Shown: positions 6,306 through 60,502 of the stretch, piece after piece
Position numbering within the stretch: position 1 is the stretch's first letter
Layout: the number at the start of each line of letters is the position of its first letter
Assembly: GCF_033807715.1 (NCBI RefSeq)
Contig: NC_084607.1
Span: 1 to 64,000, forward strand
DNA length: 64,000 nt
Source of the DNA: Cololabis saira
Taxonomy: Eukaryota > Chordata > Actinopteri > Beloniformes > Belonidae
Direction of reading: 5' to 3'
The notes under the pieces: generated by a model
Seen by the model: the letters and a program-made list of their open reading frames with translations, nothing else
What the model was told of the DNA's origin: nothing
The model's database searches: none
Position numbers and translations under genes: made by a program

Positions 6306-6731
6306 TCAGACGGTCGACTCCCTGAGGTTCTCGTCCTGTTGAAGGTTTGGTTGGTGAGAAGGAGGAGCAGCGTGGAGGAGGAAGTCGCTCTCCAGCTGCA
6401 CCTTGAAGCGAGGAGGTTCCTCTGGACCTTCTGGACCACGAGGAGGTTCCTGTGGACCTTCTGTACCACGAGGAGGTTCCTGTGAACCACCTGGACCTCC
6501 GTACAGCTGATTCATCCTCTCACAGAGCAGTCCCTCGGTCTCCGGAGGAGTTAGCTGGTCTTGAGGAGCGTTATTCTTCCCCAGATCCCGGTTCTTCTTC
6601 TCCCTGAAGGTGTAGGAGGCCAGGCGGATGGTTCTCTGCAGGAGATGTTTCCTGTAGGATCTCTGGATCACCGAAGCGGCTAACTCCTCCTGCTTCCTCC
6701 TCAAGGTGCTGCTGATCGGCTCGTACGACAC
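6306..6731 (-). CDS. scn4a: scn4a-like exon 31 (residues 1621-1761, IQ motif, C-terminus, stop)
   Basis: Encodes [20 protein letters not shown], then the calmodulin-binding IQ motif starting at I1642 ([12 protein letters not shown]). A Gly/Pro/Glu-rich tail with near-tandem EEPPR-type repeats follows, and the end is ESTV, a class I PDZ ligand, with TGA at 6308-6306. Acceptor CTTCCAG, amplified six times upstream. Its reading frame runs open into that array, so the exon start rests on the acceptor and family homology. Confidence 0.94.
   Translation of the reverse strand: MSYEPISSTLRRKQEELAASVIQRSYRKHLLQRTIRLASYTFREKKNRDLGKNNAPQDQLTPPETEGLLCERMNQLYGGPGGSQEPPRGTEGPQEPPRGPEGPEEPPRFKVQLESDFLLHAAPPSHQPNLQQDENLRESTV

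Positions 6732-60502: not shown

Follow-up and report, generated by a model that had tools for sequence, protein, structure and literature searches.

The window analysed here, the first 64,000 nucleotides of contig NC_084607.1 of Cololabis saira, contains a complete Nav1.4-type gene on the minus strand (60502-6306) with 31 coding exons and 60 splice junctions. Joined at their outermost splice sites, the 31 exons give an unbroken open frame of 1761 amino acids. The product matches human Nav1.4 (6agf_A) and other vertebrate Nav channels in PDB, and along most of its length shares 68% identity with what we take to be the human SCN4A sequence. Introns total 48,911 bp within the 54 kb gene span. 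Two of them, introns 3 and 24, are AT-AC introns. The consensus of U12-type AT-AC introns is ATATCCTT at the 5' end and AC at the 3' end; intron 3 has these features, with the 5' end ATATCCTT (atatccttca), the 3' end aaac and a branch-like ttccttaaag, and intron 24 starts with ATAAGT and ends with AC. SCN4A presumably provides a precedent for a U12-type AT-AC intron. Introns 7, 12 and 17 are free of arrays and measure 105, 125 and 71 bp.

6306-60502, minus strand: coding part of a voltage-gated sodium channel alpha gene of fish Nav1.4 type, scn4a-like (exon model and PDB matches)
60639-60760, minus strand: duplicate, upstream of the gene start, of 5'UTR-side sequence, the ATG and 40 coding nt of exon 1 (124-column local alignment with few differences)

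The authentic counterpart of the upstream start-codon copy lies at 60463-60586 on the minus strand. The duplicate supplies a second ATG in the same surroundings, and the sequence farther upstream is repetitive as well. An intron after residue 44 splits the N-terminal coding part into exons 60371-60502 and 58870-59007; this part is presumably a single exon in human SCN4A, and the intron may have been gained. In-frame coding repeats are found in exon 7 (21 bp, 39997-40049, presumably in the domain I extracellular loop) and in exon 31 (30 bp, 6409-6488, C-terminal tail). In the presumed 3'UTR, a 24/45-bp tandem array at 6142-6299 starts a few bases past the stop codon. Reverse-transcriptase open reading frames (Pfam RVT_1) are located inside intron 16 (27965-29854, minus strand) and at 61523-62092 on the plus strand, and intron 2 contains an endonuclease-like open reading frame (55411-56499) with Pfam matches below the cut-off.

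An initial annotation of this DNA claimed that exon edges, together with their splice sites, are repeatedly copied into the adjoining introns at about 18-20 of the 31 exons, in one to about 100 copies. Direct comparison of exons and introns confirmed this. Border copies were found in the flanking intron at 26 of the 60 junctions (13 of 30 donors and 13 of 30 acceptors), belonging to 19 exons identical to those originally named (2, 3, 4, 5, 9, 10, 12, 15, 16, 19, 20, 22, 24, 25, 26, 27, 28, 29 and 31), with 1 to 94 copies per border and the most at acceptor 5. Each junction was represented by a 24-nt query (14 + 10 nt), allowing up to five mismatches. These 24-mers identified 179 copies in their own flanking introns, 53 of them from 13 of the 30 donors and 126 from 12 of the 30 acceptors; acceptor 22, with a blastn match of 88% over 40 nt, brings the count to 26. 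A probable 27th border is acceptor 19, of which intron 18 (22873-27048) contains a likely copy 116 bp upstream of the authentic acceptor; with 6 mismatches in 24 it falls below the cut-off and was left out of the 26.

The copying is local, one-sided and one-stranded. The junction 24-mers had no matches on either strand of the non-flanking introns, a search space of 36-48 kb per query, none in the flanking intron on the wrong side (both strands), and none on the reverse strand of their own intron. Similarly, blastn of the exons against their adjacent introns at a cut-off of at least 28 bits returned 83 same-strand matches and no reverse-strand match, and against all non-adjacent introns, both strands pooled, it returned 2. 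The splice edge was the exact end of 70 of the 83 matches and lay within 3 nt of the end in 79 and more than 12 nt away in 2, and none of the 83 came from the half of the exon away from the intron. Coverage of exon bases by matches accordingly falls from 29% within 10 nt of the edge to 1.1% beyond 75 nt. Exon-internal k-mers, which the initial annotation had proposed to count against edge k-mers, are thus not as frequent in the introns as those from the edges.

The copies had been described as tandem, but those of acceptors 10, 25, 27 and 28 and one copy of donor 15 lie a few hundred bp or more from their border. The good blastn copy of acceptor 10 begins at exon base 3, and a separate weak match of this acceptor at intron position 541 is counted among the 179. 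The exon part is short at acceptors 28 (14 nt), 29 (6 nt) and 31 (4 nt). Tandem Repeats Finder (TRF) reported 117 non-redundant arrays comprising 37% of intron bases; only 15 borders lie inside or within 3 nt of a TRF array, and direct comparison shows more. The arrays and copies are as follows.

58319-58899, minus strand: exon 2 donor-edge family in intron 2, 4 copies with 30 nt of exon, exon part 97-100% identical (blastn, junction 24-mers)
54297-54553, minus strand: exon 3 donor-edge array, donor ATATCCTT (AT-AC), 5 copies, 9-nt core kept (TRF, junction 24-mers)
44783-46229, minus strand: exon 4 donor-edge array of 19 units in the intron, each 63-125 bp, with an identical exon-like part (TRF, 24-mers)
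42386-44792, minus strand: exon 5 acceptor-edge array, about 95 units (junction 24-mers)
41601-42285, minus strand: four exon 5 donor-edge copies set in ATT microsatellite, together most of intron 5 (blastn)
38231-38462, minus strand: exon 9 donor-edge array, period 92 (blastn, TRF, 24-mers)
36224-36257, minus strand: copy, in intron 9, of exon 10 bases 3-36 at its 5' edge, 100% identical (blastn)
35603-35865, minus strand: exon 10 donor-edge copies in intron 10 (blastn)
35094-35397, minus strand: exon 12 acceptor-edge array, period 84, 3.6 units (TRF, 24-mers)
32556-32773, minus strand: exon 15 acceptor-edge array, period 43 (blastn, TRF, 24-mers)
32102-32221, minus strand: exon 15 donor-edge array, period 44, with an extra copy within 31364-31441 (TRF, 24-mers)
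30674-31299, minus strand: exon 16 acceptor-edge array, 12 copies by 24-mer and 23 blastn matches (blastn, TRF, 24-mers)
22716-22908, minus strand: exon 19 donor-edge copies with 35-36 nt of exon (blastn, 24-mers)
20555-20852, minus strand: exon 20 acceptor-edge array, 3 copies, spacing 67 (blastn, 24-mers)
18947-18986, minus strand: copy of the exon 22 5' edge in intron 21, 40 nt, 88% (blastn)
16082-16410, minus strand: array of intron 24 (ATAAGT...AC), copies 101-109 bp apart (blastn, 24-mers)
15082-15121, minus strand: exon 25 donor-edge duplication, period 21 (TRF, 24-mers)
13654-13946, minus strand: exon 26 acceptor-edge array, period 81 (TRF, 24-mers)
13236-13417, minus strand: exon 26 donor-edge array, period 27, 6 copies (TRF, 24-mers)
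11438-13204, minus strand: exon 27 acceptor-edge copies in intron 26, scattered amid dispersed repeats (blastn, 24-mers)
10747-10903, minus strand: exon 27 donor-side copies, 70 nt of exon at 99% and a second piece (blastn)
10680-10708, minus strand: exon 28 acceptor-edge copy in intron 27 with 14 nt of exon (24-mers)
9608-9833, minus strand: exon 28 donor-edge copies (blastn, 24-mers)
9259-9401, minus strand: array of the exon 29 acceptor with 6 nt of exon, period 42 (24-mers)
6728-6980, minus strand: exon 31 acceptor array with 4 nt of exon, period 42, 6 units (TRF, 24-mers)

Intron 4 is built almost wholly in this way, with 3785 of its 3806 bp in array and 21 bp outside. Its exon 4 donor units share the 27-nt end of exon 4, followed by a variable GTGAGT or GTAAGA and a TTCA-rich stretch, and show a higher-order period of 273 bp. 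They meet the exon 5 acceptor array at a seam at 44787 (intron 4 position 1415), and that array is dimorphic precisely at the splice AG, with 42 units carrying AG and 53 carrying GG. Both AT-AC introns carry border copies; in intron 24, the units consist of the end of exon 24, an intron remnant of about 36 bp, the start of exon 25 and the end of exon 24 again. Outside arrays and dispersed matches, a class that includes some border copies themselves (e.g. in introns 11, 26 and 28), introns 5, 10 and 11 keep 117, 77 and 1 bp, and several array introns have less than 160 bp left. The splice sites are copied with differing fidelity at the two ends: 124 of the 179 copies keep their own terminal dinucleotide (52 of 53 donor and 72 of 126 acceptor copies), the 9-nt core is intact in 36 of 53 donor copies, and the 15-nt core is intact in 48 of 126 acceptor copies.

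The initial annotation further proposed that the minisatellites of this gene are not random but nucleate on exon/intron junctions and grow outward. To measure this, each junction was scored as positive if it belonged to the outermost unit of a direct-repeat family, and points displaced into the introns were scored for comparison, with microsatellite-like segments left out. At a threshold of at least 36 bits, 12 donors and 10 acceptors were positive, 22 of 60 junctions versus 7.3-7.8% of 1830 intron points, an excess of about 5-fold; at 28 bits or more, the figures were 24 of 60 versus 8% of interior points, and the fold-excess was 4.0-5.0 across cut-offs. An intron-matched null, drawing one point per border from the same intron in the 26 introns long enough (52 borders, 20000 draws), gave 6.1 +/- 2.2 versus the observed 22 of 52, a value reached in 0 of 20000 draws. 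The excess persists in families of at least 95% identity, in which the border fold is 5.1-7.0, with 4-6 of 30 donors and no acceptors hit, and the intron-matched comparison is 6 of 52 borders versus 1.1 +/- 1.0 (reached in 6 of 20000 draws). Counted by family, 10 of 20 families at or above 95% identity touch a border versus 1.5-3.5 expected at present intron lengths (P = 0.0007 with the larger expectation), as do 5 of 10 at or above 98% versus 0.5-2.0 expected (P = 0.02). Local GC was rejected as the cause of the border founders, with rates of 0.062-0.081 across bins for all families; in families of at least 95% identity the rate rises slightly with GC, from 0 to 0.022.

Evidence for a peak at the border itself is mixed. 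For all families, the rate is 0.33-0.40 at the junction and, moving into the intron, 0.53 (10-30 bp), 0.61 (30-60 bp) and 0.49 (60-120 bp) on the donor side and 0.41, 0.46 and 0.32 over the same intervals on the acceptor side, dropping to 0.02-0.16 beyond 120 bp. All families together therefore show no peak on the splice site and instead form a plateau about 100 bp inside the border, in which many points share families. In families of at least 95% identity, there is a peak at donors, with 0.20 at the border declining to 0.08 at 60-120 bp; for acceptors the border rate is 0, and farther inside it is 0.03-0.08. On each side, 16 of 42 families have their outer boundary no more than 60 bp from the border, and 20 of 42 repeat families extend more than 5 nt into an exon. 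The non-random placement proposed at the outset is thus borne out by the border excess, and nucleation is one reading only in view of the plateau and of unit registers that, as described below, are compatible with chance.

The share of each repeat unit that is exonic was calculated as the exon part divided by the array period for 20 pairs compiled by hand from alignments and TRF, leaving out donors 2 and 5 and acceptors 10, 22, 25 and 28, which have no clear period. The mean share was 0.42 (range 0.10-0.74) versus 0.47 +/- 0.05 for random placement (KS p = 0.10, n = 20). Unit register is compatible with random placement and shows no sign of a process that reads the splice site. An earlier calculation from raw extensions (mean 0.34, KS p = 0.007 versus uniform) was dropped, as the intronward extension crosses several units. 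Likewise, an apparent higher conservation of exon-like parts among copies (13 of 18 borders) was discarded, as the exon windows had been chosen by similarity; in full units, exon-like and intron-like columns showed no consistent difference in the 7 of 13 arrays with enough units (ranks 4/30 to 34/34). All five mainly exonic arrays have periods divisible by 3, which points to a coding filter; among them, the exon 21 array, which falls in the S4 segment, probably represents a normal repeat of the protein.

Because the copies run across the border without a break, stay local and are confined to one strand and to the intron on that side, they indicate tandem duplication of DNA. RNA-mediated copying or retroposition is excluded by the intron sequence in the copies, their single strand and their restriction to the flanking intron. 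We consider it probable that the arrays reflect frequent local tandem duplication independent of splicing, passed through a coding filter, with the outermost sites retained and short ancestral introns; the short ancestral introns, the continued use of the outer sites and neutrality are all three what we infer. Slippage, template switching or unequal exchange would duplicate DNA locally, very often in this gene and irrespective of splicing. Duplications inside coding sequence would be purged unless they keep the frame, and those inside introns would be retained. Duplications straddling a border would also be retained, the exon keeping its authentic outermost site and the extra copy becoming intronic, and such founders would expand into minisatellites, giving a vertebrate the structure known from amphioxus as a "mirage"; transposons would later disrupt some of them. 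This agrees well with the suggestion in the initial annotation that selection tolerates only duplications whose outer site remains usable, a reading under which the lack of internal k-mers is already expected. Since internal exon pieces cannot become intronic by tandem duplication, that lack is uninformative on nucleation.

Border founders would be common largely because many arose in short introns, on the order of 100-200 bp, and a conserved exon would keep old border copies recognisable and add to their frequency. With introns of 80-200 bp, random founders would touch a border in 23-45% of cases using TRF periods, versus the observed 20 of 42, and in 54-87% using junction-unit lengths, which are inflated by multi-unit extension; at the present mean intron length, the figure is 3-9%. 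We count in support of local duplication the short array-free introns 7, 12 and 17, the little non-array sequence in introns 4, 5, 10 and 11, the intron 24 units in which a 36-bp intron remnant sits between exon 24 and exon 25 parts, the duplication of the start-codon region (where a splice border is not established) and the array just after the stop codon. Growth by transposons is visible in the reverse-transcriptase reading frame of intron 16, the weak endonuclease match in intron 2 and the dispersed matches parting the copies in intron 26. The young border-touching families, at or above 95% identity, count against the short-intron part of this explanation, as they should postdate intron growth. 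The share of borders hit, 13 of 26 with at most 500 bp of intron outside arrays and dispersed matches and 13 of 28 above that (with the 0 of 6 borders of array-free introns 7, 12 and 17 set apart), shows no fall with intron core length and gives the short-intron part no support. Later transposon growth and repeat homogenisation could blur both of these results.

The same observations favour a mutational preference for exon/intron borders, for example transcription- or chromatin-linked breakage and repair, which would be nucleation in the true sense and which we regard as possible but rather unlikely. It would account for the roughly 5-fold founder excess over interior points and its persistence in families of at least 95% identity, for the high donor-border rate of these young families, and for a hit share that does not drop with core length, and GC offers no other explanation across all families. 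However, all families together show no border peak relative to positions 10-120 bp inside, no acceptor border is touched among the families of at least 95% identity, the registers fit chance, and the start-codon region is likewise duplicated. In addition, an excess about as large is expected from short ancestral introns together with anchoring by the conserved exon. The young-family excess, the donor border peak and the steady hit share together keep nucleation as a minority possibility. In its full form, with borders as hot spots of tandem duplication, introns growing from both ends, and the outermost of dozens of near-identical sites spliced, AT-AC sites included, it is a doubtful proposition that we would hold only tentatively.

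The near-complete retention of the first two bases in donor copies and of the 9-nt core in about two-thirds of them (36 of 53) could alternatively suggest selection in favour of decoy splice-site arrays, whether for splicing regulation or for in-frame isoforms. If used, 153 of the 179 decoys, a count that includes copies without the splice dinucleotide, would add an in-frame stop, 18 would add stop-free in-frame sequence and 8 would shift the frame. The six 27-bp exon 26 donor copies are among the 18 and would each extend the protein; use of these copies (13236-13417) would lengthen what homology places as the domain IV S3-S4 linker by 9 residues or a multiple of 9. Against such selection, the last two bases are kept in just 72 of 126 acceptor copies, with GG in 53 of 95 exon 5 units, exon-like columns are not consistently more conserved within arrays, and the great majority of decoys would introduce a stop. 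We therefore find selection for decoys improbable. Judging from the gene's coding potential, the authentic outermost sites are presumably still used, and exon definition would favour the outermost site. The passages of PMC8724738 consulted have no bearing on the choice between serial sites.

Intron gain is a further alternative. Under the Rogers model, in which introns arise by tandem duplication of AGGT-containing exon sequence and the arrays would be their birthplaces, the first bases of an intron reportedly resemble the start of the next exon and its last bases the end of the previous exon. The 30 pairs of this gene match no better than mismatched pairs at either end, at 5.6 and 6.0 of 20 positions versus 5.3 +/- 2.0 and 5.6 +/- 1.9, although old introns could lose the trace. 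The number of coding exons, 31, would suit this model, and boundary repeats have been suggested to give rise to new introns in amphioxus (PMC3087553, in the passages concerned) and tied to new introns in human paralogs (PMC2812944, likewise), but we judge it very unlikely here. Still less credible is an assembly artefact: tandem arrays are hard to assemble and copy numbers may be wrong, but the arrays affect 26 borders and vary widely in period, their copies are set apart by substitutions and indels, the exon 4 array has a higher-order structure and the frame is intact, all of which argues against it.

The closest known structures are the amphioxus "mirage" minisatellites of Adh3 and of the globin genes BflGb6 and BflGb9, described in passages of PMC3087553 as tandem duplications spanning intron-exon boundaries, in which both 5' and 3' borders are affected and many, but not all, units keep AG/GT. 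The fish gene shares the border-spanning unit, the involvement of donors and acceptors, and the partial retention of the dinucleotide (124 of 179). As described there, the amphioxus cases are from a cephalochordate, with one border per globin gene and units of 150-160 bp, and Adh3 units of 10-72 bp (PMC3087553); here, the gene is from a vertebrate, 26 of 60 borders of a single gene are affected with up to 94 copies, and AT-AC introns are included. Splicing and instability were examined for the amphioxus mirages, which leave regular splicing undisturbed and are unstable in length between alleles or tissues (PMC3087553); the analysis of the fish gene covered one genomic sequence. We suggest that the border arrays are a variant of the same structure, the resemblance being a descriptive one, and that the fish gene is an extreme case of amphioxus-type border copying, new in the saturation of a vertebrate gene and in the copied AT-AC sites.

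Other systems share single features. In human segmentally duplicated genes, minisatellite units of about 30 bp at exon-intron boundaries affect intron structure; according to PMC2812944, these are variable repeats of recent paralogs that are retained in the transcript or spliced out of it, sometimes forming new introns, whereas the fish repeats sit on the intron side and leave the frame of the gene unchanged. Polyubiquitin UBC likewise combines tandem repeats with many splice sites in one gene, but in the passages concerned its dual-specific sites delimit coding monomers and are used (PMC10809524), and the fish copies are non-coding border pieces with candidate sites. Codfishes and herring have an extreme content of short tandem repeats; the passages of PMC10546739 give genome-wide counts of 1-10 bp units and describe no border pattern. 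The duplication of dmrt1 in Solea, a 10-kb event, was set aside as a parallel of another kind (PMC7605655, in the passage concerned). The literature searches made turned up no report of a vertebrate gene saturated with border arrays.

Taken together, border-spanning minisatellites are not confined to amphioxus and can occupy a vertebrate muscle-type sodium channel gene to the point that one 3.8-kb intron is almost all array. This offers a specific way for introns to become longer independently of transposons, and it leaves one gene with considerably more than a hundred splice-site look-alikes. The gene is also a natural experiment on splice-site choice, with serial identical or near-identical donors and acceptors, some of them AT-AC, among which position and not strength must decide. 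If the hot-spot reading were true, the locus would expose a natural rule for picking among identical sites, the AT-AC sites of the minor spliceosome included.
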